The translations under genes were made by a program, and so were the position numbers. 44,321 bases of DNA from Rhodocyclales bacterium (GTDB lineage: Bacteria; Pseudomonadota; Gammaproteobacteria; Burkholderiales; Rhodocyclaceae): assembly GCA_016235805.1 (NCBI GenBank), contig JACRIY010000054.1, forward strand, positions 1 to 44,321. Reading direction: 5' to 3'. Every line of letters begins with the position of its first letter. The stretch's first letter is position 1. Of this stretch, positions 1,783 to 40,146 are shown in pieces. The notes under the pieces were generated by a model that did not search any database, was not told the origin of the DNA, and saw only the letters and a list, made by a program, of their open reading frames with translations.

Positions 1783-2679
1783 GTGATCCGCATCTCCCTT
1801 CCGGCCGCACTCGCGGCACTCGTGCTCGCCATCGCCCCGGGAGTCGGCGCCGGCGCTACGGCGAACGCGTCGCCTGCGGTCTCGCCGGCGACGGGGCCCG
1901 GTCTGGTCCAGGTGCCGCAAGGCAATCGCAGCGGGCTGACGCTGACCACGCTCGACGACAAGGCCGCCTACCAGGTTTCGCAGGATGCCATCGGCAAGCC
2001 CGTCGGCGACCATGTCCTGCTCGACCGCCAGGGCCGCCCGACGCGCCTGGCCGATTACCGGGGCAAGCCGCTACTGGTCAGCTTCATCTACACCGCCTGC
2101 TTCCAGGTCTGCCCGACCACCACCAAGAACCTGCAGAAGGCCGTCGAGAATTCCGTCGCCATGCTCGGCGCCAACCGCTTCAACATCGTCAGCATCGGCT
2201 TCAACCAGCCCTTCGACTCGCCCCAGGCGCTCAAGTCCTTCGCATCGCAATACGGCATCCACCTGCCCAACTGGGAATTCCTCAGCCCGGCGGCCGCCAT
2301 CGTCGACGACGTGACGAGGAATTTCGGCTTCAGCTACGTCGCCACCTCGGCCGGTTTCGACCATCTCAACCAGGTTACCCTGGTCGATGCCGAAGGCCGC
2401 ATCGTGCGCCAGATCTACGGCAACACCTTCACAGCCGCCGACATCGCGGAACCGCTCAAGGCCATGGTCACCGGCGCGCCGATCCCGCCGCAGACCAGCA
2501 CCCTGGCGGAACTGGCCGACCGCGTCCGCATCATTTGTTCGGTCTACGATCCGCTCACCGGTAAATACCGCACCAACTACGCGCTCTACTTCGAGATCGC
2601 CGGCTTCATCAGCTTCCTGTTCTTCCTCGGCTGGATCGCCTGGAACTTCACGCGCAAGCAGCACGGCACCCAGGCCTGA
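1783..2679 (+). CDS. Sco/SenC-family copper chaperone with C-terminal membrane anchor
   Basis: Thioredoxin-fold Sco protein of 298 aa that would deliver copper to an oxidase or reductase. It has an N-terminal signal peptide, and the copper-binding motif is CFQVC (about residues 106-110). This differs from the usual CPDVC seen in the two other Sco proteins of this window. The conserved histidine lies in GFDHLN near residue 193. Beyond the Sco core an extra 70-residue tail ends in a hydrophobic helix and a basic KQHG end, so it is probably held in the membrane at its C-terminus. The start is GTG at 1783, 16 bases after cyoE. The 22-nt dispersed repeat (1842-1863) is embedded in the sequence coding for the signal peptide and mature N-terminus (GVGAGATA). 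Confidence 0.88.
   Translation: MIRISLPAALAALVLAIAPGVGAGATANASPAVSPATGPGLVQVPQGNRSGLTLTTLDDKAAYQVSQDAIGKPVGDHVLLDRQGRPTRLADYRGKPLLVSFIYTACFQVCPTTTKNLQKAVENSVAMLGANRFNIVSIGFNQPFDSPQALKSFASQYGIHLPNWEFLSPAAAIVDDVTRNFGFSYVATSAGFDHLNQVTLVDAEGRIVRQIYGNTFTAADIAEPLKAMVTGAPIPPQTSTLAELADRVRIICSVYDPLTGKYRTNYALYFEIAGFISFLFFLGWIAWNFTRKQHGTQA
1842..1863 (+). repeat. Dispersed 22-nt repeat, copy 1 (plus)
   Basis: One of eight copies of AGTCGGCGCYGG followed directly by YGNNACGGCR. This copy lies in the signal-peptide region of the Sco gene and is read there as GVGAGATA. Confidence 0.75.
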
Positions 2680-2685
2680 GCGCGC

Positions 2686-2704
2686 CTGGCGCCCGCGCCT
2701 TTTT
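2686..2704 (+). terminator. Weak terminator after sco
   Basis: A short GGCG-CCCG-CGCC stem-loop (2688-2699) is followed by a T5 run, directly after the Sco stop codon. The stem is short, so the confidence is low. Confidence 0.4.
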
Positions 2705-2730
2705 CACTCGCGCGGGCGACGAAAGCCGCC

Positions 2731-2747
2731 ACCGGATTCAATCCGGT
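2731..2747. promoter_or_regulatory. 17-bp perfect palindrome, putative operator
   Basis: ACCGGATTCAATCCGGT is a perfect inverted repeat (8 bp, one central base). It abuts and shares one base with the FNR-type box at 2747-2760. The one-base centre makes an RNA hairpin unlikely, so a dimeric DNA-binding protein is the natural explanation. The regulator is unknown. Confidence 0.5.
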
Positions 2748-2760
2748 TGATTCGAGTCAA
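2747..2760 (+). promoter_or_regulatory. FNR-type box with matching -10
   Basis: TTGATTCGAGTCAA differs from the consensus TTGAT-N4-ATCAA at one base. TATCAT at 2783-2788 is a near-consensus -10 whose centre is 32 bases from the box centre, the geometry of a class II FNR promoter (box at -41.5). The predicted transcript start near 2795 leaves a leader of about 196 nt before the GTG at 2991. Confidence 0.7.
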
Positions 2761-2990
2761 GTGAAAAAAGCCGCCAGCCGAATATCATTAATTCCTAATA
2801 GTCGGCCTCCATTCCGGCAAGCGGGAAACCCCAATCGCTCATGGCAGCCCGAGCCACCCTCAGATGATGAAACACGCGAAAGGCAAATTGAAGGCCCGCC
2901 CCTCCCATCCTCCCCTCGCGGGGAGGCTATCGATTGGCTCGCTGCGCTCGACTGTCACCAATCGCTCCGAACACGTAGTTTCACTTTAAC

Positions 2991-5064: not shown

Positions 5065-5068
5065 GACC

Positions 5069-6982
5069 ATGCTGACCCTCCTCCAGAAAATCGTTCGCTG
5101 GTTCTTCATGCGCGCCGAGAACCTGTTCAACGTCGCCTTCGGCGAGAAGCTGAACCCCTTCTACCACCTGGGCACCATCAGCTTCTGGCAGTTCTGGCTG
5201 CTGATCGGTACCGGGCTCTACCTCTACATCTTCGCCGACACCGCGGTGCATGACGCCTACGAGTCGGTGGAGCGCATCACGCACGAACAGTGGTGGGCGG
5301 GCGGCATCATGCGCAGCGTGCATCGCTATGCCACCGACGGCATGATCCTGACCATGCTGCTGCACATGCTGCGGCACTTCGCCTACGACCGTTATCGCGG
5401 CTTCCGCTGGTTCTCCTGGGCCACCGGCGTCGCCCTGATCTGGCTGATCTACATTTCGGGCCTCAACGGCTTCATGCTCGTGTGGGACAAGCTGGCGCAG
5501 TTCGTCGTCATCGCCACCGCCGAATGGTTCGATGCGCTGCCGATGTTCAACGGCACGCTGATCCGCAATTTCATCTACCAGGACAACGTCACCAGCCGGC
5601 TGTTCACCCTGCTCGCCTTCATCCACCTCGGCGCGCCGCTGATCGCGGGCGTCATCGCCTGGGTGCACGTGCAGCGCGTGCCGCGCGCCCACGTCAACCC
5701 GCCGCGGGCGATCGCGATCGCCGTCACCCTGATGTTCGTCGTGCTCGCCCTGGTCAAGCCGGTGGTGAGCCAGGGCGGCGAGGCCGACATGCTGGTGGTG
5801 CCGACCAACATTGCCTTCGACTGGTTCCAGATGCCCGTGCTGGCCCTGGTCTATGTGGTCGATCCGCTCCACCTCTGGCTCGGCGTCGTCGGCCTCTCGC
5901 TGCTGCTGTTCCTCGCCCCATGGCTGCCGCCCAAGCGCATCGGCGCCGGGAAGGCCGAGGCGATGGTGACCTTCCACCCCGACCACCGCGCGGTCGCCAT
6001 CCGCTTCGATGAAACCCTGCTCGATGCCGGCCTGCGCCAGGACATCAACCTGCCCTACGAATGCCGCAACGGCGGTTGCGGGCGCTGCAAATGCACCGTG
6101 GTCGGCGGCAAGGTCGACCCCGGCCTCTACCAGCCCAGCGCACTCTCGGCCGAGGAACTTGCGGCAGGCAAGGTGCTGCTGTGCTGCGCCACGGCGCTGG
6201 GCGACGTCGAAATCGAATACGAAGCCTCGACGCTGCCCAACGCGCTGCGCGAATACCGAGCCACGGTGGCGAAGATGGAGAAGCTCAGCCACGACGTGAT
6301 GCGCGTGATGCTCGAACTGCCGCCGGGGCAGCAGGTCCCCTTCAAGGCCGGCCAGTACATCAACATCATCCTCGACGACGGCCAGCGCCGCGCCTTTTCC
6401 TTCGCCAACCCCCCGCACCAGGCCGGTCTGATCGAACTGCAGATCCGCCTGATGCCCGGCGGGCGCTACACCACCTATGTATTTGAACAGATGAAGGTCG
6501 GCGACACGGTCCGCTTCGAAGGTCCGCTGGGCGATTTTTCGCTGCGCGAATCCGAGCGTCCCATCGTCTTCGTCGCCGGCGCCACCGGCTTCGCGCCAGT
6601 CAAGAGCATGGTCGAGGACGCCTTCCAGCGCGGCCTCAAGCGTCCGATCCACCTCTACTGGGGTGTGCGCCGCCTGGCCGACCTCTACCTGCCCGAACTC
6701 CCTGCGAGCTGGGCGCGCGAACATGAGAATTTCCACTTCATCCCGGTGCTTTCGGATGCCGCGCCGGAGGACCACTGGACCGGACGCACGGGTCTGGTGC
6801 ACGAAGCCATCCTGGCCGACTTCCCCGACCTCGCCGGCAAGGAAATCTACGCCTGCGGCTCGGTGAAGATGGTGGAGGCGATCTTCCCCTCGCTGAAGAA
6901 CCAGGGCGCCGAGGAAGGCATGTGCTTCTCCGATGCCTTCACCATCTCGGCGCGCTCGATGGCCTTCCAGCCGAAACAGTAG
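5069..6982 (+). CDS. Cytochrome b - [2Fe-2S] ferredoxin - FAD/NAD(P) reductase fusion protein
   Basis: 637 aa. Residues 1-285 are a cytochrome b domain paralogous to the one encoded at 2991, with H85/H99 and H186/H200 as heme ligands. Residues 295-390 are a plant-type [2Fe-2S] ferredoxin (C332-x4-C337-x2-C340 and C372 or C373). Residues 395-637 are a ferredoxin-NADP reductase module: RAFSFA (441-446) for FAD, GATGFAP (504-510) for the nicotinamide nucleotide, and ACGS near 596. Electrons could flow from NAD(P)H through FAD and [2Fe-2S] to the b hemes, or the reverse. The start ATG 5069 follows the upstream stop by 4 bases. The domain order resembles NqrF-like reductases attached to a transmembrane cytochrome b, which is unusual. 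The physiological partner is unknown. Confidence 0.88.
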   Translation: MLTLLQKIVRWFFMRAENLFNVAFGEKLNPFYHLGTISFWQFWLLIGTGLYLYIFADTAVHDAYESVERITHEQWWAGGIMRSVHRYATDGMILTMLLHMLRHFAYDRYRGFRWFSWATGVALIWLIYISGLNGFMLVWDKLAQFVVIATAEWFDALPMFNGTLIRNFIYQDNVTSRLFTLLAFIHLGAPLIAGVIAWVHVQRVPRAHVNPPRAIAIAVTLMFVVLALVKPVVSQGGEADMLVVPTNIAFDWFQMPVLALVYVVDPLHLWLGVVGLSLLLFLAPWLPPKRIGAGKAEAMVTFHPDHRAVAIRFDETLLDAGLRQDINLPYECRNGGCGRCKCTVVGGKVDPGLYQPSALSAEELAAGKVLLCCATALGDVEIEYEASTLPNALREYRATVAKMEKLSHDVMRVMLELPPGQQVPFKAGQYINIILDDGQRRAFSFANPPHQAGLIELQIRLMPGGRYTTYVFEQMKVGDTVRFEGPLGDFSLRESERPIVFVAGATGFAPVKSMVEDAFQRGLKRPIHLYWGVRRLADLYLPELPASWAREHENFHFIPVLSDAAPEDHWTGRTGLVHEAILADFPDLAGKEIYACGSVKMVEAIFPSLKNQGAEEGMCFSDAFTISARSMAFQPKQ

Positions 6983-7012
6983 GCGACGAATGCCGACGCG
7001 GATGCCACTGCT

Positions 7013-7034
7013 CGCCGTACCGCCGACGCCGACT
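7013..7034 (-). repeat. Dispersed 22-nt repeat, copy 8 (minus)
   Basis: On the minus strand this reads AGTCGGCGTCGG then CGGTACGGCG. It lies in the 79-bp space between two convergent genes and is the intergenic copy with the most divergence in its middle part. Confidence 0.65.
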
Positions 7035-7061: not shown

Positions 7062-8390
7062 CTAGCCGCGCTTCTTCGGCAGCATGAGCTTGAGGCAGAC
7101 CAGGACGAACATGATGCCGCCGATCACGGCGATCAGTCCGCCGGCGCCCATCATGCCCATGCCGATCTTCTGCGGCAGCGTGGTCAGCGCCTGCTCGGCG
7201 CCGGCCACCTTGCGTTGCACGCCATAGCCGCCCGACCAGGCCAGGCCGAGGATGTGGATCAGTTGCCCGCCGCCGTACACGTAAGGCTGCCAGCGCGCCA
7301 TGCGCCCCTCGACCTCGCCGAAGCCCAGTTGCGGCAGCAGCACGTAGGCCAGGCCCATGAAGGCCAGCGTCACGCCCACCGTGGAGCCGTGATAGTGCGC
7401 CGGGATCACCACGTTCACACCCTGGATCATGTACGCCAGCACGCCGCCTACGGCGAACAGCAGGAAGGAGGCGATGAAGGCCGACCTGGCGGCATGGGCC
7501 GCCACCTTGCGCATGGCCAGCAGGCCAAGGAAGCCGACCAGGATCAGCGGCGCCATGTAGGGATGGCCCCAGATCATCAGCTTGGCGAAGAGTTCCATGT
7601 GCGGCAGTTCGCCGGCGGGGATCGTGAAATAAATCGCCGGCACCATCAGCAGCGGCAGGGCCGCGATCCAGAACATGGCCGACAGCGCGCGCGGCGACGC
7701 GGCAGGGGCCTGTCCGAGATGCATGGCGATCCAAAACCAGGCCACCACCATCAGCAGCGAATGCTGGAATTGCAGGGTGTGGCCGCCGCCCCAGAACAGG
7801 ACTTCGAAGTAGATCTTTTCCTCGACCCGCGGCACCACGATCCAGGACCAGACGAAGGCCGCCAGCGCGAGGAAGGCTGCCACCGCGCCGAGGAAGGCGC
7901 CCAGCTGCAGCGGCGAAGCGAAAGCCGGACGCGGCCAGGTGGTCAGCAGCGCGCGCAGCACGGCAAGGCCGAAGCCGGCGCCGCAGATCCACAGCGAGGC
8001 ATAGAAGGTCGGCTGCTGCAGCACCGGAATGTAGTTGTTGAGTACCGGAACCGCGCCGGGCAGGAAGGGCGACACGGTCATCACCAGGGTGCCAACCGCC
8101 GCCAGCGCGAAGCCGCCCCAGCCCATCCAGGCGAAACCTTCGCGGCCCAGCGCGCTCCAGATCACCGCGGCGAAGGCCATGAACCATATCGCCACCGAGA
8201 GGTCCACATGCACCACCAGCGCGGCACGGAAGAAATCCTTGAGCGGAAACACGTCCTGGATGCCGGGGGTGCGCGACAGCACCAGCAGGATGGCCAGCAG
8301 GCCGGAACCGATCAGGGCCATCAGACCCAGCCACAACCATGCGCGTGCCAGCGATTTCGCGGCGCCGCCGGGACTCTGGATAGTATGCAA
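7062..8390 (-). CDS. Heme-copper oxidase subunit I-like protein lacking the CuB histidine pair
   Basis: 442-aa protein with about 12 membrane helices and the fold signature of heme-copper oxidase subunit I. H61 (helix II, HVDLSVAIWF) and H332/H334 (AHYHG, helix X) match the ligands of the low- and high-spin hemes. Helix VI keeps one CuB-type histidine (FWGGGH, H204), but the Tyr of HPxVY is replaced (HTLQF). In helix VII the HH pair seen in ba3 (FHHQF) and cbb3 (GPHHLH) is replaced by VPAIYF around residues 250-255. A lone H276 occurs in helix VIII. CuB is therefore probably absent or rebuilt. No subunit II is adjacent; a sco gene diverges 74 bases away. The start is uncertain: TTG at 8390 with GGAG 11 bases upstream, since no ATG is available. 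Confidence 0.8.
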   Translation of the reverse strand: MHTIQSPGGAAKSLARAWLWLGLMALIGSGLLAILLVLSRTPGIQDVFPLKDFFRAALVVHVDLSVAIWFMAFAAVIWSALGREGFAWMGWGGFALAAVGTLVMTVSPFLPGAVPVLNNYIPVLQQPTFYASLWICGAGFGLAVLRALLTTWPRPAFASPLQLGAFLGAVAAFLALAAFVWSWIVVPRVEEKIYFEVLFWGGGHTLQFQHSLLMVVAWFWIAMHLGQAPAASPRALSAMFWIAALPLLMVPAIYFTIPAGELPHMELFAKLMIWGHPYMAPLILVGFLGLLAMRKVAAHAARSAFIASFLLFAVGGVLAYMIQGVNVVIPAHYHGSTVGVTLAFMGLAYVLLPQLGFGEVEGRMARWQPYVYGGGQLIHILGLAWSGGYGVQRKVAGAEQALTTLPQKIGMGMMGAGGLIAVIGGIMFVLVCLKLMLPKKRG

Positions 8391-8464
8391 TTGAACTATT
8401 ACTCCGGGCAAAGTCGGGAAGTATACGGCAAGGTCCAGGGAGAAACCGGGTACACTTCCGAGCG

Positions 8465-9073
8465 ATGAAAATTTTCGATGCAACCCCCGCCATGCGACTG
8501 ATCTCCGCCCTCGCCTTCTGCCTCGCCACCCTGCTGGCCGGCTGCTCGCAACCCACGACATTTTCCGGCACCGACCTCTCGATGGTCGATTGGGGCAAGG
8601 ATTTCAGGCTCACCGACCACAACGGCCAGGCGCGCAGCCTCGCCGATTTTCGCGGCAAGGCGGTGGTACTGTTCTTCGGCTATACGCAATGCCCCGACGT
8701 CTGCCCGACGACGCTGTCCACCCTGCGCGAAACCATGGCCCTGCTCGGCGACGATGCCAAACGCGTGCAGGTGCTGTTCGCCACGCTCGACCCCGAGCGC
8801 GACACGCAGGCCCTGCTCGCGCAATATGTGCCGGCCTTCCACCCGAGCTTCCTCGGCCTCTACGCCGACGAAAAAACCATCGCCGCCGTGGCCAAGGATT
8901 TCAAGGTGTTCTACGTCAAGCAACCGGGCAAGACGCCCGGCAGCTACAGCGTCGACCACTCCACCGGCAGCTACGCCTTCGACCCGCAGGGCAAGCTGCG
9001 CCTGCTGCTGCGCCACGGCGAGGCGCCGGCCAAGGTCGCCGCCGACCTGAAACTGCTGCTGGCCGGCAAGTAA
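8465..9073 (+). CDS. Sco-family copper chaperone, lipoprotein
   Basis: 202-aa Sco protein with a lipobox (LLAGC, about residues 22-26), so it is probably anchored to a membrane as a lipoprotein. The thioredoxin-like core has CPDVCPTT (about residues 78-85) for copper and the conserved histidine in VDHST near residue 162. It would deliver copper to, or reduce, a copper site of an oxidase. It diverges from the oxidase-like gene at 7062-8390, and the two probably share a promoter region. That is odd if the neighbour truly lacks CuB. The start could also be ATG 8492, which gives a more typical signal peptide; 8465 is kept because nothing decides it. Confidence 0.88.
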   Translation: MKIFDATPAMRLISALAFCLATLLAGCSQPTTFSGTDLSMVDWGKDFRLTDHNGQARSLADFRGKAVVLFFGYTQCPDVCPTTLSTLRETMALLGDDAKRVQVLFATLDPERDTQALLAQYVPAFHPSFLGLYADEKTIAAVAKDFKVFYVKQPGKTPGSYSVDHSTGSYAFDPQGKLRLLLRHGEAPAKVAADLKLLLAGK

Positions 9074-9532: not shown

Positions 9533-9650
9533 CAAATCGGCGCTCGCGCAACGCTGCTGGTTGCCGGCCCATGCCAGCGCCCCCTCTATCCGAAAGGCGG
9601 GTTGCGAACTGGTCGCAGCTCAATGCGCCGCGCCGCAGAGGCCGCCGCAG

Positions 9651-16129: not shown

Positions 16130-18493
16130 TCAACGACCTGTCATGGCGGCGTCGGCGCGGCGCAAGCGGTGCAGCAGCATGTCGAACAGCGCATCCGGAT
16201 CGAAAGGCTTGGCCAGGAAGTCATCCATGCCGGCGGCCAGGCAGCGCGCCCGGTCTTCGGCAAAGGCATTGGCCGTCATGGCGATGATGGGAACGCCGGC
16301 ATAGTCGGGATCATGGCGTATGCAGCGCGTGGCATCGAGCCCGTCCATGCGTGGCATTTGCATGTCCATCAGGATGAGGTCGTAGACCTGGCCCCCCGCC
16401 ATGGCGCAGGCCTGTTCGCCGTCCTGCGCCGTATCCACCTTGAGCCCCGACTCGTCGAGCAGCATCCTGGCCACTTCCAGGTTGACCGGTTCGTCGTCGA
16501 CTACCAGGATGCGCCGTCCGGCGTAGTCGCGGCGGATCAGCAGTTCGGCATTTCCCGATTCACCGGTGGCATCCGCCGCGAATGCCGAACCGCGAGTCAG
16601 CCTTGCGGTAAACCAGAAGCGGCTGCCGACCTTTGCCGTGCTTTCGACGCCGACTTTGCCACCCATCAGTTGCGCCAGGCGGCGCGTGATCGCCAACCCC
16701 AGGCCGGTGCCGCCATATTTGCGCGTGGTCGAGTTGTCGGCTTGTTCGAAGGCTTTGAACAGGCGCGGCACGGCTTCGGTTTCGATGCCGATGCCGGTGT
16801 CGATCACTTCGAAGAGGACGGTGACAGCGTCGCCATCGTCCCGCTCGACGCCGGCGCGCAGCGTGACCGAGCCATGGTCGGTGAACTTGAGGGCGTTGTT
16901 GGCGTAGTTGAGCAGGGCCTGCTGGATGCGAATCGGATCTCCCAGCAATCCGGCGGGCAGCGAACTGGCTTCGATTTCCAGGCGGATGCCCTTGGCGTGC
17001 GCACGGTCGGCGAGTATCGAGCCGACCTTGCGCAACAGGCCCGGTATGTCGAGCGGAATTGCCTCCAGCACGAACTTGCCGGCCTCGATCTTGGAGATAT
17101 CGAGGATGTCGTTGATGATGCCCAGCAAGTGTTCGGCAGCGGTATCGATGTTGTCAAGCTGGTGCGCCTGCTGTGGCGTAACGCCGCCGCGACGCAACAG
17201 GTGGGCCATGCCGACTATGCCGTTCATCGGCGTCCTGATCTCGTGGCTCATGTTGGCGAGAAAGGCACTCTTGGCGACGTTGGCTGCCTCGGCCGCCTCC
17301 TTGGCCTCGGCCAGTTCGAAGGTGCGCGCCAGCACCTGCTCTTCAAGGCTGCTGCGATGGCGTTCGAGTTCGGCCTCGCTGCGCAGGCGCTCGGTGGCAT
17401 CGCGGTCGACGCCCTGGAAGCCCGTCAGCTTGCCCCCGGTATCAAAGACCGGCGCGGCATTCGACTCGAAGCTGCGGTAGTCGCCTTCGGCGGTCCGCCA
17501 GCGAATCGTCACACCGTGCCAACCGCGGCACTTCTGCACAGCCTCGTTGAAAGTTTCAACAAGCATGGCGCGGTCGTCCGGATGGACCAGATCGATCGTA
17601 TCGGTATCCAGGAGTTCCTGAAAGCCGAGGCCCAGCAGATGCAAGCCGCGTTCATTCGAATAGGTATGTCGGCCCTGCGCATCCATGGCCCAGACCCAGT
17701 CCGCGGAGTTTTCGGCGAGCAGGCGGTAACGCGATTCGCTGGCACCCAGTTGCGCGTTCCTTTCGTCGATCTCGCGCAGCGCGCGGGCGCCGGTTTCCTT
17801 GAGGGTGACGATGGCCGTCGCCAGTTCGTCAATCTCGTCGCGAACCGCGACCTTGGCCGCAGGCTCGGCGTCGGCGAGGAACCGACGCAGATCCCTCGGC
17901 TTGACGTTCTTCAGTTCGTCGGCGATGACCAGCAAGCGGCGGCGCACGAACTCGTGGTAGATCATCACCGCCAGCAACACGACCAGCAGGATCACCAGGG
18001 TATTGCCGGCCAACGCGATCAAGCCCCGGCGGATATGCTCGGCGCGCAGCTCGCTTAGATCGGTGACAATCTCCAGCGTTCCAAGCTCATGGCGCCTCCC
18101 CGATTCCTCGACGTAAAGCGGGAAGGCCTTCTCGAAGACTTCGTTGGCCCCGATCTCCCTGCCGAATCGGAGTTCGGCGCGACCGGGAACGGTGAGGTGC
18201 ATCGAATGCACGTTGGATAGCCGCGCGGCGCCATTCAGCAGTACCGCGACATGGTCAAAGTCGAAAGCCCACAGGCTGTTGTTTAGTGCCGGAGTGATGA
18301 ACTCAGCCACGGACTGGATGTGTCGATCCAGATTTGCGACGCGCTCGCGGTAGGACAGTACCGCCTCGCCCGCCGAAATCAGTATCGAGGAAATACCGCC
18401 GACCAGCACCGACCAGAGCAGGATGCGTCGCGTCAGGCGGCTCTTGAAACCGAGGAAGTCGAGCCGACCTGAAATCTTCTCCGGCATGACCAT
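16130..18493 (-). CDS. Membrane-bound hybrid sensor histidine kinase
   Basis: 787 aa. Two membrane helices (about 22-45 and 160-180) flank a periplasmic sensor of about 115 residues. Then come a HAMP-like segment, a coiled coil, a PAS domain (about 255-370), HisKA with H417 (MSHEIRTPMNG), HATPase (DTGIGI, GGTGLGL) and a receiver domain (about 655-775, LMDMQMPRMDG). It starts 12 bases after a periplasmic solute-binding protein gene whose end supplies the ribosome binding site. The two probably form a sensing unit in which the binding protein presents a ligand. No separate response regulator gene is adjacent. Confidence 0.9.
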   Translation of the reverse strand: MVMPEKISGRLDFLGFKSRLTRRILLWSVLVGGISSILISAGEAVLSYRERVANLDRHIQSVAEFITPALNNSLWAFDFDHVAVLLNGAARLSNVHSMHLTVPGRAELRFGREIGANEVFEKAFPLYVEESGRRHELGTLEIVTDLSELRAEHIRRGLIALAGNTLVILLVVLLAVMIYHEFVRRRLLVIADELKNVKPRDLRRFLADAEPAAKVAVRDEIDELATAIVTLKETGARALREIDERNAQLGASESRYRLLAENSADWVWAMDAQGRHTYSNERGLHLLGLGFQELLDTDTIDLVHPDDRAMLVETFNEAVQKCRGWHGVTIRWRTAEGDYRSFESNAAPVFDTGGKLTGFQGVDRDATERLRSEAELERHRSSLEEQVLARTFELAEAKEAAEAANVAKSAFLANMSHEIRTPMNGIVGMAHLLRRGGVTPQQAHQLDNIDTAAEHLLGIINDILDISKIEAGKFVLEAIPLDIPGLLRKVGSILADRAHAKGIRLEIEASSLPAGLLGDPIRIQQALLNYANNALKFTDHGSVTLRAGVERDDGDAVTVLFEVIDTGIGIETEAVPRLFKAFEQADNSTTRKYGGTGLGLAITRRLAQLMGGKVGVESTAKVGSRFWFTARLTRGSAFAADATGESGNAELLIRRDYAGRRILVVDDEPVNLEVARMLLDESGLKVDTAQDGEQACAMAGGQVYDLILMDMQMPRMDGLDATRCIRHDPDYAGVPIIAMTANAFAEDRARCLAAGMDDFLAKPFDPDALFDMLLHRLRRADAAMTGR

Positions 18494-21821: not shown

Positions 21822-21843
21822 AGTCGGCGCCGGCGGAACGGCA
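21822..21843 (+). repeat. Dispersed 22-nt repeat, copy 3 (plus)
   Basis: Lies in non-coding DNA just upstream of the FNR-type regulator start, ending ACGGCA rather than ACGGCG. Confidence 0.7.
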
Positions 21844-21958: not shown

Positions 21959-22135
21959 CGAACACCGCGGAAAGCAGGCAGGCGCGACAACATGCCGCGC
22001 GACGAATCGCCGCATGCGACCTTTTGCCACGCCGGCGCGCAGCGGCGGCACACGACAATGCACGCCTCGTCGAGCCTCACGCCGGGCTGCAATAGCGGTG
22101 CGGCACAAGCGACTTCCCCGCGCAAGGAAATCACG

Positions 22136-24307
22136 ATGCAGCAGAAACATCCCGCTCCGCTCCCGATCCGCCGCGCCTGCTGGCTCGCCCTCGCCGGCCT
22201 GTTTGCCGCGCCGGCCGGCCACGCGCAAACCACCCTTCCGGCCATCACCATCACCGCCGCCGAAACCGGAGCCGGCGCCCGGCTGCCGCTCGACGACGTC
22301 GCGCGGACCGGCACCCGGCTGGGACTGACGGCGCGCCAGACGGCGGCCACCATCAACATCGTCGACCGCGACGCCATCGAGGCCAGCGGCGCGCGCGACA
22401 CGCTGGAAACCCTGCAGGGCGCGCCGGGCATCATCGCCGACGCCACGCCCGGCGGCGGCGGCAATGTTTCGATGCGCGGCTTTTCCAGTTCGCAGATCAC
22501 GCAACTGTTCAATGGCCTCGACGTGGCCTACATCATCGCCGCCCACCCGGTCGACTCCTGGCTGCTCGACCGGGTCGAAGTCCTCGGCGGCGCCTCGAGC
22601 TTCCTCTTCGGCCAGGGCGCGGTCGGCGGCGCCGTGAATTACATCTCCAAGCTGGCGACGCGCCAGCCGCTGCAGCAGGACTCGCTGCTGCGCGCCGCCA
22701 GCTTCGGCGACTATCAGGTCGCCCATGACGTCAATGGCGCAATCGGCGGCGCGGACTCGGGCCACTACGCCCGGGTCGCCGTCAGCCACCAGGGCATCGG
22801 CGGTTATGTCGATCGCACCGACGGCCGTTCGTTCGTGCTCTCCGCCTCGTGGCTCGCCGACCTGACGCCGCGGCTGTCGCACACGCTGGCCTACGAATAC
22901 CAGGCCAAGGACCACCAGCCTTACTGGGGCACCCCGCTGCTGAATCCGACCACGGATGCCCGGTTCAACCCGGACACCCGCTTCAAGAATTACAACGCGG
23001 CGGACGGCGCCTATGAACAGACAGTGCAATGGCTGCGCTCCCTGCTCGAATTCCGGGTTTCCGACCAGACCACGCTGAGCAACACCCTGTATTTCTACGA
23101 TGCCGAACGCGACTACCGCAACGTCGAGACCTATCGCTTCAATGCCGCCAACAGCGCCGTGATCCGCTCCGCCACGCTGGCGCAGAAGCACGGCCAGAGC
23201 ATCGTCGGCGACCGTGTCGAGGCCGTGCACAAGGGCGAGATCCTCGGCCTGCCGACGACCTGGTCCTTCGGCGTCGACCTCAGCCGCAACACCCAGACGC
23301 GCTACCCGACTTCGCTGGCCGCCGTGGTCAGCACCGTCGATCCGGTCAATTTCGCGCCGGAAAACTTCTTCCAGATTCCCGGTGTCACGCCGGCCACCAA
23401 TCCGGACCGCGACAACCGGGTATGGACCCGGGCCCTGTATGCCGAGAACCATACGAAGCTGACCAGCGCCTGGAGCCTGCTTTCCGGTTTGCGCGCCGAA
23501 CACATCAAGGTCGATGCGGTGAATCACCGCGCGGTGAATGCGGCGAATCCCGCCTACTTCCAGCGCCACTGGAATCCGGTCACCGGCCGCCTCGGCCTCA
23601 TGTACGAGTTCTCGCCCGGGGCGAACGCCTACGTGACCGGCAGCACCGCCGCCGATCCCCCCTCGGGCATCCTCAGCACCGCCAACTTCGGCAGCGTCCA
23701 GGACTGGGACCTGACCAGCGGACGGCAGGTCGAGGTCGGCAGCAAGTTCGACTTCCTCGACGGCCGGGGCAACGCCACCGTCGCCGCCTACAAGATCGTC
23801 CGCAAGAACCTGGCCATGCCCGATCCGGCGAATCCCGCGGTCAGCATCCCGGTCGGCCAGCAATCCTCGCGCGGCATCGAGCTGCAGGCCGGCATCCGCC
23901 TGTCGCCGGCCTGGAGCCTGCGCGGCGACCTGGCGCTGGTGGACGCGCGCTACGACACCTTCATGCAGACCGTCGGCGTGGTGGCGGTTTCCCGCGCCGG
24001 CAACACGCCGACCTATGTGCCGGATCGCGTCGCCAACCTGCACCTGGGCTGGAACATCACTCCGGCATGGACCGTGGCGGCGGAACTGCGCAACGTGTCA
24101 GCGCGCTGGGGCAACGTCGAGAACACGCAACGCTTCCCGGGCTACACCCTGCTCGGCGCCAGCCTGTCGTGGAAGCTCGACCGCAGTTCGACGCTGGTCC
24201 TGCGCGGCCGCAACCTGGGCGACGAGTTCTACGTCGCCTCGGGTTCGACCCAGCCGCGCATCGGCGAGCCGCGGGCCTTCGAACTCAGCCTGCGCAGCAC
24301 CTACTGA
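22136..24307 (+). CDS. TonB-dependent outer membrane receptor, siderophore type
   Basis: 723 aa. Signal peptide to about GHAQ. The plug domain (about 45-165) has the pattern IEASGARDTLETLQGAPGI and the signature VEVLGGASSFLFGQGAVGG. A 22-strand-type barrel ends in LSLRSTY with the terminal aromatic residue needed for outer-membrane assembly. The start ATG 22136 has AAGGAA upstream; the longer frame from 21992 has no such site. It heads an operon with a PepSY protein, tonB, exbB and exbD, so receptor and energiser are supplied together. Sequence features fit ferric siderophore receptors, but a copper role (as for NosA/OprC in denitrifiers) cannot be excluded. Confidence 0.9.
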   Translation: MQQKHPAPLPIRRACWLALAGLFAAPAGHAQTTLPAITITAAETGAGARLPLDDVARTGTRLGLTARQTAATINIVDRDAIEASGARDTLETLQGAPGIIADATPGGGGNVSMRGFSSSQITQLFNGLDVAYIIAAHPVDSWLLDRVEVLGGASSFLFGQGAVGGAVNYISKLATRQPLQQDSLLRAASFGDYQVAHDVNGAIGGADSGHYARVAVSHQGIGGYVDRTDGRSFVLSASWLADLTPRLSHTLAYEYQAKDHQPYWGTPLLNPTTDARFNPDTRFKNYNAADGAYEQTVQWLRSLLEFRVSDQTTLSNTLYFYDAERDYRNVETYRFNAANSAVIRSATLAQKHGQSIVGDRVEAVHKGEILGLPTTWSFGVDLSRNTQTRYPTSLAAVVSTVDPVNFAPENFFQIPGVTPATNPDRDNRVWTRALYAENHTKLTSAWSLLSGLRAEHIKVDAVNHRAVNAANPAYFQRHWNPVTGRLGLMYEFSPGANAYVTGSTAADPPSGILSTANFGSVQDWDLTSGRQVEVGSKFDFLDGRGNATVAAYKIVRKNLAMPDPANPAVSIPVGQQSSRGIELQAGIRLSPAWSLRGDLALVDARYDTFMQTVGVVAVSRAGNTPTYVPDRVANLHLGWNITPAWTVAAELRNVSARWGNVENTQRFPGYTLLGASLSWKLDRSSTLVLRGRNLGDEFYVASGSTQPRIGEPRAFELSLRSTY

Positions 24308-27196: not shown

Positions 27197-27616
27197 ATGG
27201 CGATCGGCAGCTTCGATGGCCGACGCCACATGGCGCCCATGGCCGACATGAACGTGGTGCCGCTGGTGGACGTGATGCTGGTGCTGCTGGTGATCTTCAT
27301 CGTCACCGCGCCGCTGCTGACCCACGCGGTGAAGATCGACCTGCCCAGGGCCTCGTCCAGTCCCAACGTGTCCAAACCCGAGCACATCGAGTTCGCCATC
27401 CGCGATACCGGCGAACTGCTCTGGAACGGCGCACCGGTGCGGCTGGCCGAACTCTCCGCGCGTTTCGACGCCGAAGCGAAGCGCCAGCCGCAGCCGGAAC
27501 TGCACCTGCGCGCCGATCGCAATGCGCGCTACGAAAGCGTGGCCCAGGTGATGAGCGTCGCCGCCAAGGCCGGGCTGCTGCGCATCGGCTTCGTCAGCAC
27601 GCCGGAGCCGGGGTAG
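27197..27616 (+). CDS. exbD: ExbD proton channel subunit
   Basis: 139 aa. The single membrane helix contains the essential aspartate (NVVPLVDVMLVLLVIFIV, D near residue 24), followed by a periplasmic domain. Last gene of the receptor-PepSY-TonB-ExbB-ExbD operon. Confidence 0.95.
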   Translation: MAIGSFDGRRHMAPMADMNVVPLVDVMLVLLVIFIVTAPLLTHAVKIDLPRASSSPNVSKPEHIEFAIRDTGELLWNGAPVRLAELSARFDAEAKRQPQPELHLRADRNARYESVAQVMSVAAKAGLLRIGFVSTPEPG

Positions 27617-27648: not shown

Positions 27649-27670
27649 AGTCGGCGCTGGTGACACGGCG
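27649..27670 (+). repeat. Dispersed 22-nt repeat, copy 4 (plus)
   Basis: Lies in the short non-coding space between the convergent exbD and nirJ genes. Confidence 0.75.
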
Positions 27671-27719: not shown

Positions 27720-28874
27720 TCAGGCCAGGCCGATTTCCTCGTCGCTCAGGTAGCAGCCGGGATCTTCCGCCCACGGGTCGCCGGTCAGTTGCTGGGCACG
27801 CACCCGCGTGTTGCCGCCGCAGATGGCGAAGTGCGCGCAGGCGCCGCAGCGCCCGCCCACCTTGCGCGGATGCGCCTTGAGGCCCGCCATCAGCGGGTCG
27901 GAAACGTCGTTCCAGATCGCGCCGAAATCACGCTCGCGCACGTTGCCCAGGGTGTAGTGCCACCACATGGTGTCGGGGTGCACGTTGCCGAGGTTGTCGA
28001 TGTTGGCGACATTGACGCCGCTGGAATTGCCGCCCCATTGTTCGAGTTTGGCGCGGATGTGCTCCAGCTTTTCCGGGAAACGGCGCTGCAGCCAGGTGAG
28101 CAGATACACGCCGTCGGCATCGTTGTTGCCGGTGGTGAATTCCTTTTGCAGGCCCTTCTGCTGATAGTCCCAGCAGGTGTCGAACATCAGGTCCATGGCG
28201 TTGCGCGTCATCTGGTGCAGGGCGTCGTCCTTGCGGTTCTTGTTGCCGCGCCCGGCATAGTTCAGGTGCGAGAAATAGAAGCGGTCGATGCCTTCGTCCT
28301 CGACCAGTTTCAGCAGGCCCGGCAGGTCCTGGTAGTTGTCCTGGGTCATGGTGTAGCGCACGCCGACCTTGAGCCCGGCATCGCGGCAGAGGCGGATGCC
28401 GGCCAGCGACTTGTCGAAGGCTCCCTGCATGCGGCGGAACTTGTCGTGGGTGGCGCCCAGGCCGTCGAGGCTGACGCCGACATAGTCGTAACCGATTTCC
28501 CGGATGCGCTCGAACATCGGCGGGTCGATCAGCGTGCCGTTGCTGGAAAGCGCGGTGAAGAAGCCCATCTGCTTCGAGCGTGCGGAGATCTCGAAGATGT
28601 CCGGCCGCAGCAATGGCTCACCACCGGAGAGGATCAGCGCCGGAACGCGGAAGGCCTTGAGCTGGTCCATCACCGTGAAGACTTCCGAGGTGGAAAGCTC
28701 GCCGGCGAAGTCCTTGTCGGCCGAGATCGAATAGCAGTGCTTGCAGGTCAGGTTGCAGCGCCGCACCAGGTTCCAGATCACCACCGGACCGGGTGCGCGG
28801 GTGGCAACTGAGCGCGCCGGCCCAGGCGGCGAAGGCTGGGCGATTTCGTGCATGAATTGGGAGATTCTGAACAT
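27720..28874 (-). CDS. nirJ: Heme d1 biosynthesis radical SAM protein NirJ
   Basis: 384 aa. The radical SAM cluster motif is C40-x3-C44-x2-C47 (CNLTCKHC), with GGEPLL near residue 87 and a C-terminal cysteine-rich SPASM-like segment (GGRCGACAHFAICGG) for an auxiliary cluster. The overall pattern and the MFRIS start resemble NirJ, which removes propionates from 12,18-didecarboxysiroheme on the way to heme d1 of nitrite reductase. The longer frame from 28952 is rejected. An FNR-type box is centred about 41 bases upstream of ATG 28874 with CCTAAT as a possible -10, which would place the transcript start at the ATG. The other d1 genes, apart from nirN, lie elsewhere. Confidence 0.88.
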   Translation of the reverse strand: MFRISQFMHEIAQPSPPGPARSVATRAPGPVVIWNLVRRCNLTCKHCYSISADKDFAGELSTSEVFTVMDQLKAFRVPALILSGGEPLLRPDIFEISARSKQMGFFTALSSNGTLIDPPMFERIREIGYDYVGVSLDGLGATHDKFRRMQGAFDKSLAGIRLCRDAGLKVGVRYTMTQDNYQDLPGLLKLVEDEGIDRFYFSHLNYAGRGNKNRKDDALHQMTRNAMDLMFDTCWDYQQKGLQKEFTTGNNDADGVYLLTWLQRRFPEKLEHIRAKLEQWGGNSSGVNVANIDNLGNVHPDTMWWHYTLGNVRERDFGAIWNDVSDPLMAGLKAHPRKVGGRCGACAHFAICGGNTRVRAQQLTGDPWAEDPGCYLSDEEIGLA

Positions 28875-28908
28875 GGCGACATTAGGCGCACTGGGCGCGG
28901 CAAGTGCT

Positions 28909-28922
28909 TTGACTGCGGTCAA
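28909..28922. promoter_or_regulatory. FNR/DNR-type box between nirJ and the ankyrin gene
   Basis: TTGACTGCGGTCAA is a perfect inverted repeat of the TTGAC half-site type. Toward nirJ, CCTAAT (minus strand, 28881-28886) sits at exact class II spacing. It also lies 84 bases before the divergent ankyrin gene, so it could act in both directions. Confidence 0.7.
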
Positions 28923-29006
28923 GCGCGGATGTGAAATACTGCTCCCGGTCAAGGAAGTCAGGGGCCGACGAGCTTACTATTTCCCCAATTCCAACGCGAG
29001 ATTGCC

Positions 29007-32248: not shown

Positions 32249-32863
32249 TCAGCGGCCTTCCACGACCATCGCGCCCCGAATGCGATCGACTATCTCGCGC
32301 GCCGCCATGCCATAGGTGAAGCGCGCCAGGAAGCGGCCGCGGGTGTCGAGCAGCACCATGCCGGCGGTGTGGCTCATGGTGTAGTTGTCCGCCGCGGCAC
32401 CGGGCTCGCGCACGATCTCGTACTGCACGCGGAAGCTGTCGGCGGCGCGGCGCACCAGTTCCGCCGAGCCGGTGAGGCCGAGGATGCGCGAGTCGAAGGC
32501 CGCCGTGTAGTCGCGCAGCACCTCGCGCGTGTCCCGCGCCGGATCGACCGTGATGAAGATGGGCTGCAGCTGCGGCGCCCGGTCGCCGAGCGCGTCGAGT
32601 ATCTGCTTCACTTCCAGCAGCGTGGTCGGGCAGACATCGGGACAGGAGATGAAGCCGAAGGTGACGAGCTGGAAACGGCCGCGAAAGTCTTCCTGGGTCA
32701 CCGCCCTGCCCTGCACGTCCATCAGCAGGTAGCGCGGCATCAGCGGTGCCGCGTCCTGCGGCGCCGGGACATGGCGCGCGCCGGCGGCGGGTTGCGCGAA
32801 TGCCGGCAAGGCGACGACGGGCAGCGCCGCGAGTACGAGAAGCGCGCGCATCCGCCGCGTCAT
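32249..32863 (-). CDS. Sco-family copper chaperone (nos cluster)
   Basis: 204 aa with a signal peptide ending near AFAQ. The copper motif is CPDVCPTT (about residues 72-79) and the conserved histidine is in TMSHTAG (about 163). It lies in the 3' part of the nos cluster, 1 base after a small secreted protein gene. A role in supplying copper to NosZ or in reducing its CuA cysteines is plausible by analogy, alongside NosL. Confidence 0.88.
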   Translation of the reverse strand: MTRRMRALLVLAALPVVALPAFAQPAAGARHVPAPQDAAPLMPRYLLMDVQGRAVTQEDFRGRFQLVTFGFISCPDVCPTTLLEVKQILDALGDRAPQLQPIFITVDPARDTREVLRDYTAAFDSRILGLTGSAELVRRAADSFRVQYEIVREPGAAADNYTMSHTAGMVLLDTRGRFLARFTYGMAAREIVDRIRGAMVVEGR

Positions 32864-32864: not shown

Positions 32865-33212
32865 TCACTTCGCCATCACGGGCAGGGTTTCGGAAAGCTG
32901 CAGGGACAGCGCGTTGAGGCGCGAGGTGAGTTCCGTGGCGCTGGCGCAAGCCTGGCCGGAACGGGTCTGCGCGGTGAAGGCCTCCTGCGTCGCCTCCTCG
33001 TAGGCGGCGCCGAAGCGCGGCGTCTTCGGCGCATGGGCCAGCATCAATTCCCTGGCGCGCGCCGCGACTTTCGATTCGGCGCAGGCCAGGGCCTGGCCGT
33101 TGACGCCGCCGAGGCTTTTGACCGCCAGCAAGCCGGCGTCGGCATCGGCGGAGAAAGTCGGCGCTGACGACACGGCGAATAGCACGGAGAAAGCAAGTTG
33201 GATGAGTCTCAT
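32865..33212 (-). CDS. Small secreted hypothetical protein
   Basis: 115 aa with a signal peptide (MRLIQLAFSVLFAVSSAPTFSA) and a helical mature part with two cysteines (LACAES and GQACAS). Not recognised. It sits between the second NosD and the Sco gene and is probably cotranscribed. The signal-peptide end is coded by a copy of the 22-nt repeat (33156-33177). Confidence 0.65.
   Translation of the reverse strand: MRLIQLAFSVLFAVSSAPTFSADADAGLLAVKSLGGVNGQALACAESKVAARARELMLAHAPKTPRFGAAYEEATQEAFTAQTRSGQACASATELTSRLNALSLQLSETLPVMAK
33156..33177 (+). repeat. Dispersed 22-nt repeat, copy 5 (plus)
   Basis: Lies antisense in the signal-peptide coding part of the small secreted protein. The gene strand reads AVSSAPT. 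Confidence 0.75.
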
Positions 33213-35402: not shown

Positions 35403-35415
35403 CGGTGTTCCTTGC

Positions 35416-35928
35416 CTATTTCAGGGCCGCCTCGGCGGCGGCATCGAGTTCGCTGCGGTTCATGGCGCCCAGCTTGCTGGCGACGATGTTGCCTTTCGGC
35501 CCAATGGCCACGGTGAAGGGAAGGCCGGCGCGCGTGTTGCCCAGCGCCTGCATGAGTTCGATGCCGCCGGCCTTGGCCAGCAATACCGTATAGCTCATCT
35601 CGTAGGCCTTCATGAAGTCGCGCACGGATTCTGCCTTGTCTTCGAGTCCGATGCCGATCACGGTCAGGCCGCGCTTGCCGTATTTTTCCTGGGTCTTGAT
35701 CAGTTCCGGAATCTCGACCCGGCAGGGGGCGCACCAGCGCGCCCAGAAATTGACGATCAGCGGCTTGCCGCGAAAGCTTTCAAGTGTAATCGGCTTGTCC
35801 TCGCTGCTGACCAGCTTCGCCGCGAACAGGGCGTCAGTGCTTGCGGCCTGTGCCGAGCCCGCGAGGACGAGCGCGAGGACGAAGAATCGCCGTAGCGCCA
35901 GCGCCGACTTCCTGACAGGATCGATCAC
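35416..35928 (-). CDS. TlpA/ResA-like periplasmic thioredoxin
   Basis: 170 aa with a signal peptide (to about SAQA). A thioredoxin fold with WCAPC (about residues 66-70) and cis-Pro in GLPFTV near 136. Such proteins reduce cysteines in apo-cytochromes or copper sites such as CuA. It overlaps nosY by 4 bases (ATGA), so it belongs to the nos operon; a role in NosZ or cytochrome maturation is inferred. The N-terminal coding region (residues 6-13) is a copy of the 22-nt repeat, read as KSALALRR. Confidence 0.88.
   Translation of the reverse strand: MIDPVRKSALALRRFFVLALVLAGSAQAASTDALFAAKLVSSEDKPITLESFRGKPLIVNFWARWCAPCRVEIPELIKTQEKYGKRGLTVIGIGLEDKAESVRDFMKAYEMSYTVLLAKAGGIELMQALGNTRAGLPFTVAIGPKGNIVASKLGAMNRSELDAAAEAALK
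35888..35909 (-). repeat. Dispersed 22-nt repeat, copy 7 (minus)
   Basis: Same strand as the TlpA-like gene and within its first codons. The reading frame differs from copy 1, giving KSALALRR. Confidence 0.7.
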
Positions 35929-36752: not shown

Positions 36753-36768
36753 GCGAAAAACCTGTTTT

Positions 36769-36836: not shown

Positions 36837-36862
36837 AATTGTTTTGCGTTGAAGTTCATGCC

Positions 36863-38208: not shown

Positions 38209-38227
38209 GTTCGGGAGTCTATTCAGT

Positions 38228-39208
38228 TCAGAGTAGCTTTGAGAGGCCCTTGACCTCGAACTTGAGCGAGCCCGTGGGGCAGGTGTCCACGCACAGCCCG
38301 CAGCGCGTGCAATCGGGTCCGATCGGCACTTCCGTATCGACGGCGCGGCCCTTGATCACCGTGTCCAGCACGTGCGGCACCAGGCAGACCTTGCGGCAAT
38401 CGCCTTCGTGGAAGCAGTTGTCGAGCGTGTACTTGATGCGCACCGGCGAGAAGATGCCGACCACGCCATAGGTGAGGCCGATCGGGCAGGCATAGCGGCA
38501 CCAGGCGCGGCGCGAGAAGAAGACTTCGAACACCAGCAGCGCCAGCACCCAGAGCAGGGCCAGGCCGGGACCGTAGATCAGCGCCCGCGAAAGGATGCCG
38601 GTAGGCGAGATGGCCTCGAATACGGTATAGCCGGTAGCCAGCGCCAGCAAGGCGAAGACGATCCAGGACAGGGTGCGCAGGCGGCGGTCGATGGCCTGGT
38701 CGGTCACCAGCTTCTTCTTCACCAGCCAGAGGTGGATGTTCTCGGCCCATTCGGCCAGCAGGTGGTAGGGGCAGACCCAGGAACAGAAGCTGCGCCCGCC
38801 GAGGATGAGCCAGAGCACGAGGACCGTGCCAGTGCCGATCACCAGGTTCACGATGATGTGCTTGTGCGCCAGCATTACCTGCAGCGCCGAGTTGAGGTCG
38901 ATCAGGTGGAAGCCGATGAAGCGCGAGGCGGTCAGCGCGCCTTCGAGGATCTGGATGTCGAGCCAGAAGGACAGAGTGAAGAACAGGTTGACCACCAGCA
39001 GCACCGTCCAGCGGCGATTGCGCCAGGTGTGCACAGACTTCCTGTCCTGGTGGGCGACGATCGCCGCCTGCAACCTCTCCTTGTTGGTGGCGCGCTTGAG
39101 CACATGGATCTTCTGCGCCGGCTCGGAAATCGCCACCGGCTTTCGCGGCTCGCGGCCGAACATCACGGCGATCTGGTCGCGAAAGCGATTCTTCAAATAG
39201 ACGCTCAT
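38228..39208 (-). CDS. nosH: NosH membrane ferredoxin (NapH-like)
   Basis: 326 aa. Four to five membrane helices carry CSWVCPYH (about 141-148) and CRYACPIG (about 238). C-terminal Fe-S motifs follow: CFHEGDCRKVC (about 265) and CTRCGLCVDTCP (about 300). NapH/NosR/NosH-type proteins pass electrons from menaquinol toward periplasmic oxidoreductases, with NosG as partner. It replaces NosR in clade II nos clusters. The start at 39208 (ATGA overlap with nosG) is chosen over the longer frame from 39397, whose composition is unnatural. Confidence 0.92.
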   Translation of the reverse strand: MSVYLKNRFRDQIAVMFGREPRKPVAISEPAQKIHVLKRATNKERLQAAIVAHQDRKSVHTWRNRRWTVLLVVNLFFTLSFWLDIQILEGALTASRFIGFHLIDLNSALQVMLAHKHIIVNLVIGTGTVLVLWLILGGRSFCSWVCPYHLLAEWAENIHLWLVKKKLVTDQAIDRRLRTLSWIVFALLALATGYTVFEAISPTGILSRALIYGPGLALLWVLALLVFEVFFSRRAWCRYACPIGLTYGVVGIFSPVRIKYTLDNCFHEGDCRKVCLVPHVLDTVIKGRAVDTEVPIGPDCTRCGLCVDTCPTGSLKFEVKGLSKLL

Positions 39209-40146
39209 GTGTTCCACACTTCCCTGGCCTCGACCACGATGCAGGTCGGTTCGACCGGGCAGATCATTTCGCAGACACCGCAACCGACGCAGGGCTCGTG
39301 CACCACCGGCGACTTGCGCTTGCTGCCGTCGGGCGCGAATACGGTTTCGATCGAGATGGCGCCCTTGACCGGGCATTCGCGCACGCACAGGTCGCATTCG
39401 GCGATGTCATAGGGATGTTCGGCGACCCTGATCGGCTTCCAGCGATTGACGTCCATGTAGCGCAGACGACCCTTGAAGGCCGCGCCGCGCACCTGGCCCT
39501 TGAAGCCCTTGCCCTGGATCGCGAGACAGGCCTCGGGCCGCGTCAGGCGCGCGACGCCGATGCGTTCGGAAAGGTTCAGGGTCGGCTCGGCATCCTTCTC
39601 CTTGGCCTTGAGGATGGGCGCCGCGGCGAGCTTCGCCCCCTTGCGCACGCCGAGGAAAGCCGGCTTCTTGTACACCAGCGAACCGGTCGGGCAGGCCAGG
39701 ATGCACTGCACGGCATCGCAGGAAAAATCGCAGGCCTGTTCGCGTGCATCGATGTAGGGTGTGCCGACGCCGAAGCCGTCGACCAGGTCGGCGAGCTTGA
39801 TCGCCTGCACCGGGCAGACCTGCACGCACTGGCCGCACTTGATGCAGGACGACAGGAAATCCTTTTCGTCGAGCGCGCCGGGCGGCCGCAGGCGCTTCTT
39901 CTGCGCATAGACCAGCGGCAGGTAGCCGGAAAGCGCGGCGCCCATGACGCCGCCGGTGAGCAGGATGGTGCGCAGCACACGCCGCCGCGCCTGCTGCAGG
40001 CGCTCGCGCGAGGGGGGGGGCCTGGCGGCCGGTGCAGAAGAACCGTTAGTTATGTCTACGCCGGAAGCGGCGGCGGCGTCTGGAGAAGTCGGCGCTGGCG
40101 GCACGGCGGGGTTCACCCCATCGTCCGGCATTTCCTTCTCGCTCAT
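39205..40146 (-). CDS. nosG: NosG periplasmic ferredoxin (NapG-like)
   Basis: 313 aa. A disordered Pro/Ala-rich N-terminus (1-50) precedes a hydrophobic export or anchor segment (about 60-80). Four [4Fe-4S] motifs follow, including CIKCGQCVQVCP (about 100), CDAVQCILACP (about 143), CDLCVRECP (about 252) and CVGCGVCEMICP (about 287). It is homologous to NapG and is expected to pair with NosH. The N-terminal region holds both a 22-nt repeat copy (AVPPAPT) and a run of nine G on the plus strand (CCC codons for PPP), a possible slippage site. Start ATG 40146 overlaps nosD by 4 bases. Confidence 0.92.
   Translation of the reverse strand: MSEKEMPDDGVNPAVPPAPTSPDAAAASGVDITNGSSAPAARPPPSRERLQQARRRVLRTILLTGGVMGAALSGYLPLVYAQKKRLRPPGALDEKDFLSSCIKCGQCVQVCPVQAIKLADLVDGFGVGTPYIDAREQACDFSCDAVQCILACPTGSLVYKKPAFLGVRKGAKLAAAPILKAKEKDAEPTLNLSERIGVARLTRPEACLAIQGKGFKGQVRGAAFKGRLRYMDVNRWKPIRVAEHPYDIAECDLCVRECPVKGAISIETVFAPDGSKRKSPVVHEPCVGCGVCEMICPVEPTCIVVEAREVWNT
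40012..40020. repeat. G9 homopolymer inside nosG
   Basis: Nine consecutive G on the plus strand (proline codons on the gene strand) in the disordered N-terminal region of NosG. A length change of one base would truncate NosG. It could be a sequencing problem spot or a phase-variable tract. Confidence 0.6.
40087..40108 (+). repeat. Dispersed 22-nt repeat, copy 6 (plus)
   Basis: Lies antisense in the disordered N-terminal part of nosG. The gene strand reads AVPPAPT. Confidence 0.75.

Follow-up and report, generated by a model that had tools for sequence, protein, structure and literature searches.

According to an excerpt of PMC12616744, no families other than the Neisseriaceae and the Pasteurellaceae are known to choose DNA at the binding step by means of short, enriched motifs. 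The DNA uptake sequence (DUS) of the Neisseriaceae, which is read by the minor pilin ComP, is present in many dispersed copies whose dialects follow phylogeny and share a core (PMC3630211, in excerpt), and the uptake signal sequence (USS) of the Pasteurellaceae is discontinuous, can reach 32 nt and differs in type between subclades (PMC12616744, in excerpt). Here we describe a dispersed DNA repeat of about 24 letters with the architecture RRAAGTC-N12-ACGGCR (hereafter the motif, its copies being sites), which we encountered in a 44,321-nt stretch of a Rhodocyclales bacterium genome (contig JACRIY010000054.1; hereafter the window). The window is a denitrification region with nirJ, a cytochrome d1 gene and nosD, and because the nearest named loci to its nirJ belong mostly to Sulfuritalea metagenome-assembled genomes (protein identity up to 91%), the host is taken to be a Sulfuritalea-type member of the Rhodocyclaceae. 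The anatomy of the motif is firm and its function evenly balanced; our analysis gives an even chance that it is a self-recognition signal of the DNA uptake sequence type, third and independent of the neisserial and pasteurellacean ones. Among the open-access papers that our searches listed, none reports an uptake sequence or dispersed repeat for the Rhodocyclaceae.

Set beside these systems, the Rhodocyclaceae motif has a distinct build. The DUS is up to about 13 nt long and its dialects share a central CTG, whereas the motif is a two-block site of about 24 bp whose variants share the two ends and which occurs about once per 5 kb; the DUS is read by ComP, whereas the reader of the motif is putative and most of the carriers tested lack ComEA. 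The USS consists of a 9-nt core followed by AT-rich regions, in contrast to the GC-rich second block ACGGCR at a fixed spacing; AAAGTC faintly resembles the beginning of the Hin-USS core AAGTGCGGT, probably by coincidence. Repetitive extragenic palindromes (REPs) and other small dispersed repeats are likewise short, dispersed and present in many copies, but REPs are palindromic and intergenic while the motif is non-palindromic and often lies in genes. Finally, matS, parS, KOPS and Chi are also protein-read DNA sites across the chromosome, yet these are either few in number or short and strand-biased, and the motif is long, numerous and unbiased.

An initial annotation of the window had listed eight near-identical 22-mers, mostly preceded by GA or AA, and held that so many could not be chance. 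All eight coordinates and strands proved correct and six copies have the preceding GA or AA; six are identical to AGTCGGCGCYGGYGNNACGGCR and the other two differ from it by one mismatch each. With up to three mismatches allowed, AGTCGGCGCYGGYGNNACGGCR matches the window exactly eight times, compared with a mean of 0.24 and a maximum of 2 in 100 dinucleotide shuffles, and the wider pattern AAGTC-N12-ACGGC matches seven times (shuffle mean 0.11). A ninth, degenerate copy suggested at 9537-9558 is not supported: a search that tolerates three mismatches does not return it.

A genome-wide count, which the annotation had proposed as a check, lies far above control: the host genome (3.83 Mb in 130 contigs) has 723 copies with up to three mismatches (371 forward, 352 reverse), against 32 (16 + 16) for the reversed pattern. 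Such strong genome-wide over-representation of one motif is a property of uptake sequences. All 31 congeneric genomes examined are enriched (177-889 copies each), and 30 other genomes, six from the same family and 24 from other families, are near their controls, with the clearest excess at 14 versus 4 (G031). We then surveyed 297 Rhodocyclaceae genomes with a 20-mer at up to two mismatches. The motif is frequent in all 13 genomes of the host genus, the lowest count being 130 versus 30 (G016), and at similar density in five other genera, namely g32 (1/1 genomes), g43 (10/11, the exception being G293 with 8 copies), g62 (1/1), g70 (4/4) and g88 (9/9). Weaker carriers are g69 (107 versus 7) and one of the two g47 genomes (98 versus 12), and a modest excess at low counts is seen in some further genera, for example g49 (43 versus 9), g80 (45 versus 10), g38 (23 versus 3), g55 (G084, 64 versus 20) and g77 (up to threefold); the remaining genera are near controls. 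In a sample of 399 genomes of the order, searched with up to one mismatch, only G000, G072, G132 and G099 stand out (215-564 copies); all four are Rhodocyclaceae, and no genome outside this family is enriched, the maximum there being 7. In a sample of 369 genomes of the class, searched with AAAGTC-N12-ACGGCG, the host genome was the sole family member drawn and gave 266 matches, and all others gave at most 5. In the samples searched, the motif is confined to one bacterial family.

Related lineages carry dialects of the motif around a shared invariant part, as uptake sequences do. In 100 kb of a Candidatus Desulfobacillus genome (G063), the strongest outliers of an untemplated word count were AAGTCAGTCCC and its shifts, and 19 sites give the dialect AAAAGTC-AGTCYCNNCRNN-ACGGCG, in which the ends and the spacing are those of Sulfuritalea and the core is different. 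Because these sites were picked with AAGTCAGTCC at up to one mismatch, only their second half is independent; this second block, ACGGCG, is 89-100% conserved per column and follows after 12 bases, just as it does in Sulfuritalea. Across the Candidatus Desulfobacillus genus, AAGTC-N12-ACGGCG has 214-465 copies in 9 of 11 genomes (controls 1-7), and the remaining two have 45 (G316) and 6 (G205). Other core variants are GGTGC, found alongside GGCGC in g32, and GACGC in g69. Word counts in samples of G087 and G106 returned nothing comparable, and the end-block pattern occurs 0 or 1 times in samples of G106, G087, G293, G205 and G016. In G076, none of the top words fits, although we counted 4 end-block matches in 132 kb and 90 in the whole genome. 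Separately, we observed that the motif-free G205 has many REP-like inverted repeats (GTAGG-CTGGG and TGGGA-N15-TCCCA; L421-L431) and that the G016 sample has other repeats in the motif's stead.

Both dialects can be followed at a single position in nirJ: the 81 orthologues there include 3 with the Sulfuritalea form, 8 with the Desulfobacillus form and 70 that have neither. The protein alignment of this region is gapless in 81/81, although the nucleotide alignment had small gaps in many motif-free rows, and the encoded peptide tracks the dialect: RRVASADF or RRIANADF in Sulfuritalea, RRIAETDF (once RRIATTDF) in Desulfobacillus, whereas orthologues that lack a site read, for instance, DRIAECDF or ERIREIGY. 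The row of L054, which probably belongs to the motif-lost G205, reads RRIAEINF and resembles a decayed site. Two dialects at one gapless position indicate that sites can arise by substitution. At the window copy beginning at 20651, in the cytochrome d1 gene, 15 of 65 orthologues keep the motif (up to three mismatches), 24 are gapless without it and 26 are gapped. Neither of these in-gene positions is a conserved protein motif in distant orthologues; had they been, this would have undone the annotation's view that conservation is at the DNA level regardless of gene and reading frame, and that view is supported. The window's remaining in-gene copies could be compared with few distant orthologues or with none.

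Anatomy and placement were examined in parts of G002, a congener assembled as a single contig. The 92 sites in its first 400 kb give the consensus RAAGTCGGCGCYGGYGNNACGGCRa, with which 44 sites of the host genome agree; in both genomes the two inner N positions are free to vary and all others are fixed; the flanks beyond about 25 bp resemble background. In 800 kb, sites with 0, 1, 2 and 3 mismatches number 79, 33, 14 and 15, where the reversed pattern yields 0, 0, 1 and 3. The information content of 126 sites with up to two mismatches is 35.7 bits, against 13.6 needed for locating them, an excess of about 22 bits, although picking sites by similarity (up to two or three mismatches) somewhat raises these conservation and bit figures. 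Such an excess is unneeded if sites are kept for binding alone and is expected of spread as a repeat or by biased import. With gene calls from our own simple coding model, 72 of the 118 sites in 680 kb lie in genes, 44 between genes and 2 at gene edges, where random placement gives 81%, 16% and 3%, so that the intergenic share is 37% versus 16% expected. Of the in-gene copies, 27 + 27 occupy one codon phase per strand and encode VGAGxTA or AVxPAPT. Within 60 nt of a start there are 4 in-gene copies, and within 60 nt of a stop 6, with 4.5 expected for each. The annotation's statement that in-gene copies always occupy weakly constrained places does not generalize, given this lack of preference for gene ends and the site that other genera have within the enzyme gene nirJ. 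Spacing is more even than random (coefficient of variation 0.76; random 0.98, 95% range 0.81-1.22), and this fairly even dispersal on both strands, in genes and between them, is again a feature of uptake sequences. The annotation had also proposed a check of strand bias against the replication origin; over 100 of 107 places in G002 we found no replichore bias of the kind seen in KOPS/AIMS-type sites, the largest imbalance over all origins being 20 (random mean 18, 95% 28). Depletion in recently acquired DNA is a further expectation for uptake sequences, on which one 60-kb stretch of low GC (55-57%) bears at most tentatively: it has no sites, but it had been picked for a gap in a sparser pattern. 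A second over-represented word family, ATCCGCAGATT together with AGATT pairs, is present in the first 120 kb (L111-L116) and is of a different kind.

Of the three readings that the annotation had offered, a DNA-uptake-type signal fits best because dialects are built on a fixed architecture, because sites have excess information, are evenly spaced, lie on both strands and are enriched between genes, and because they originate by substitution where this is traceable; the chromosome-organising site is retained and the mobile mini-repeat is disfavoured. In the mechanism that we envisage, a sequence-specific protein common to several Rhodocyclaceae genera would read RRAAGTC-N12-ACGGCR as double-stranded DNA, and a surface receptor, probably type IV pilin-like, would bind the site on free DNA. 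Motif-tagged DNA would be imported and recombined preferentially over foreign DNA, and this biased import would spread and repair sites genome-wide. A change in receptor specificity would then cause hundreds of sites to turn over together, yielding dialects with common ends and a differing core. Three elements of this mechanism are inferred: a single protein family as reader, uptake as the process and a pilin-like receptor.

Several observations weigh against the uptake-type reading, among them the distribution of ComEA. ComEA is essential for moving DNA to the periplasm in V. cholerae (PMC3879209, in excerpt). Of 57 genomes, 12 have a match above its curated cutoff: 2 (both g88) of the 35 that bear the motif, 10 of the 19 motif-free ones and none of the three that lost the motif (G205, G293 and G136), counts that are uncorrected for kinship, include some incomplete genomes and follow groups assigned by survey counts (the weak carriers G016, G316, G098, G076 and G166 as bearing, g77 as without). 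The HHH_3 profile agrees with this result in 32 genomes: outside g88, its strong matches in motif-bearing genomes are open frames of 787-940 residues, which we take for Tex-type proteins, with a few weak matches below the cutoff. The single-contig carriers G002, G063 and G076 have no match for either ComEA or HHH_3. Co-occurrence with competence genes was considered as a positive test and set aside, since ComEC (64/64 genomes) and the PilT family (57/57) are universal, which accords with uptake but does not discriminate. A PilE-like pilin gene before a fimT-like gene is found in the motif-bearing G002, G132, G199, G099 and G076, but G293, which has lost the motif, retains pilins and this PilE-like minor pilin as well, so we rejected it as a distinguishing receptor. 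In a profile search of the PDB, the N-terminal helix of the best pilin candidate matches major pilins and geopilin and its globular part matches PilE (4noa, E 0.003); there is no ComP-named chain among its 27 matches, and its structural model is poor (mean pLDDT 60.5) and has no fold match at E ≤0.001. At about one per 5 kb, sites are sparser than most DUS, of which PMC3630211 (in excerpt) gives 5918 in 2.4 Mb as one example. Among the open-access papers listed by our searches, none documents competence experimentally in these genera. Lastly, many orthologue comparisons are ambiguous: in a looser comparison of 733 pairs, the motif is kept in 194 and absent without any gap in 175, and 364 are gapped inside the site, 6 of these with gaps of at least 15 bases.

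Either DNA import is ComEA-independent in these lineages or the site has another reader. The more specific proposal of an independent third uptake-type family, with invariant ends and an exchangeable core, in mostly ComEA-less lineages where the reader selects DNA and takes over the pulling assumed of ComEA, is one that we put forward tentatively, as possible but not probable. Apart from these arguments, ComEA is patchy across the Rhodocyclaceae despite ComEC and PilT in every genome tested, and PilT copies number two in G205, G136 and the motif-free G074 and three or four elsewhere.

The alternative that survives best is a chromosome-organising site, in which a nucleoid-associated or segregation protein would bind several hundred copies and thereby structure the chromosome. 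The even spacing, the presence on both strands and the intergenic enrichment suit such a site, as do the limitation to related genera and the lack of ComEA from most carriers tested. Nonetheless, there is no replichore strand bias, about 22 surplus bits are unexplained by selection for binding alone, and a change of dialect would require hundreds of sites to track their protein without any drive; moreover, matS, parS, Noc and SlmA sites are far fewer in number. We regard this explanation as rather unlikely, at about half the weight of the uptake-type reading, and give less weight to a site that biases recombination or repair in the cell (Chi-like, or a hotspot of gene conversion) and owes its spread to an advantage in conversion. 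The latter would account for the excess information, for the predominance of perfect copies and for turnover through substitution at the fixed nirJ position, but it is unlikely: the motif is about 24 bp long and free of replichore bias, whereas known Chi sites measure 5-8 nt and have a bias with respect to replication.

Self-insertion as a mobile mini-repeat would explain the high copy number, and two findings speak for it: two sites (in L032 and L031) align to orthologues without the whole stretch, and a contig from a viral collection (L279, 885-2238) has five exact copies, each inside a repeat unit, with the units mostly at 316-nt intervals. The wider comparison points the other way. An orthologue was available for 87 of 358 site records, and 26 of these, at about 15 distinct positions, have a gapless motif-free orthologue while 2 have one that lacks the whole site, so that block insertion is not the rule. 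Pairs with less than 0.70 flank identity were excluded from these counts and 190 pairs with small gaps are ambiguous; the 26 gapless records include 10 from one cytochrome d1 position, 3 from the nirJ position and 1 from a motif-free lineage, and some orthologues scored as motif-absent carry the other dialect. We disfavour insertion because motif-free orthologues are gapless at the best-followed positions and because the two inner positions vary while the rest is fixed; in addition, nothing is common beyond about 25 bp and two dialects occupy one orthologous position with 81/81 gapless. Insertion is, in our estimate, decidedly improbable. A transcriptional or RNA-level element, for instance a terminator or regulator site, is very improbable, for although 37% of copies are intergenic and 9 of 46 non-coding copies lie between convergent genes (12% expected), 61% are within genes on both strands, the motif is not palindromic and gene orientation is otherwise near random (32 tandem, 9 convergent and 5 divergent).

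If the uptake-type reading is true, the Rhodocyclaceae would provide a third system, one that combines a two-block build with clear dialects, lineages that lost the motif and a large number of genomes, and an independent test of how uptake specificity originates, spreads and switches. Under the more specific proposal above, its dialects would allow receptor-motif coevolution to be read directly. The uptake signal would also bear on gene-exchange partners among the denitrifying bacteria here. Should the motif organise the chromosome instead, it would be an unusually long and numerous site of that kind.

Within the window, our gene calls agree with the annotation in placing five copies in genes and three between them. 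The exact copy at 1842-1863 (+) is within an ORF (open reading frame) at 1783-2679 (+) that is weakly ResA/thioredoxin-like, its ResA match being below cutoff, and that at 20651-20672 (+) is within the cytochrome c / cytochrome d1 gene at 19376-21010 (-). Two exact copies lie in the N-terminal parts of genes: 35888-35909 (-) in a redoxin-type gene (35416-35928, -) and 40087-40108 (+) in a 4Fe-4S protein gene (39205-40146, -) that adjoins nosD (40143-41534, -). The fifth in-gene copy, at 33156-33177 (+), has one mismatch (G12 to A) and is within a small ORF (32865-33212, -) adjoining an SCO1/SenC gene (32249-32863, -). The intergenic copies are found at 7013-7034 (-; one mismatch, C9 to T) between ORFs at 5069-6982 (+) and 7062-8561 (-), at 21822-21843 (+; exact) with a Crp/Fnr-type regulator gene (about 21056-21760, -) on one side and a TonB-dependent receptor (21992-24307, +) on the other, and at 27649-27670 (+; exact) between an ORF at 27197-27616 (+) and nirJ (27720-28952, -). 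A degenerate copy at 16635-16656 (-) keeps both end blocks (AAGTC-N12-ACGGC) within a hybrid histidine kinase gene (16130-18493, -). The Crp/Fnr-type gene at 21056-21760 (-) is the end of a far longer open frame of 995 codons, the upstream part of which overlaps the TonB-dependent receptor on the opposite strand and is probably non-coding.

Isolated perfect copies, of one dialect or the other, turn up in genomes that are distant, unrelated or motif-free (L432-L438), possibly through gene transfer from Rhodocyclaceae or assembly contamination; in the short stretches inspected, 3 of 7 copies are in or beside methylase, restriction-type or SNF2-helicase genes. In the viral collection, at least 120 stretches have the motif, with extra sites at 0.46 per 10 kb in a set that was selected for holding one.

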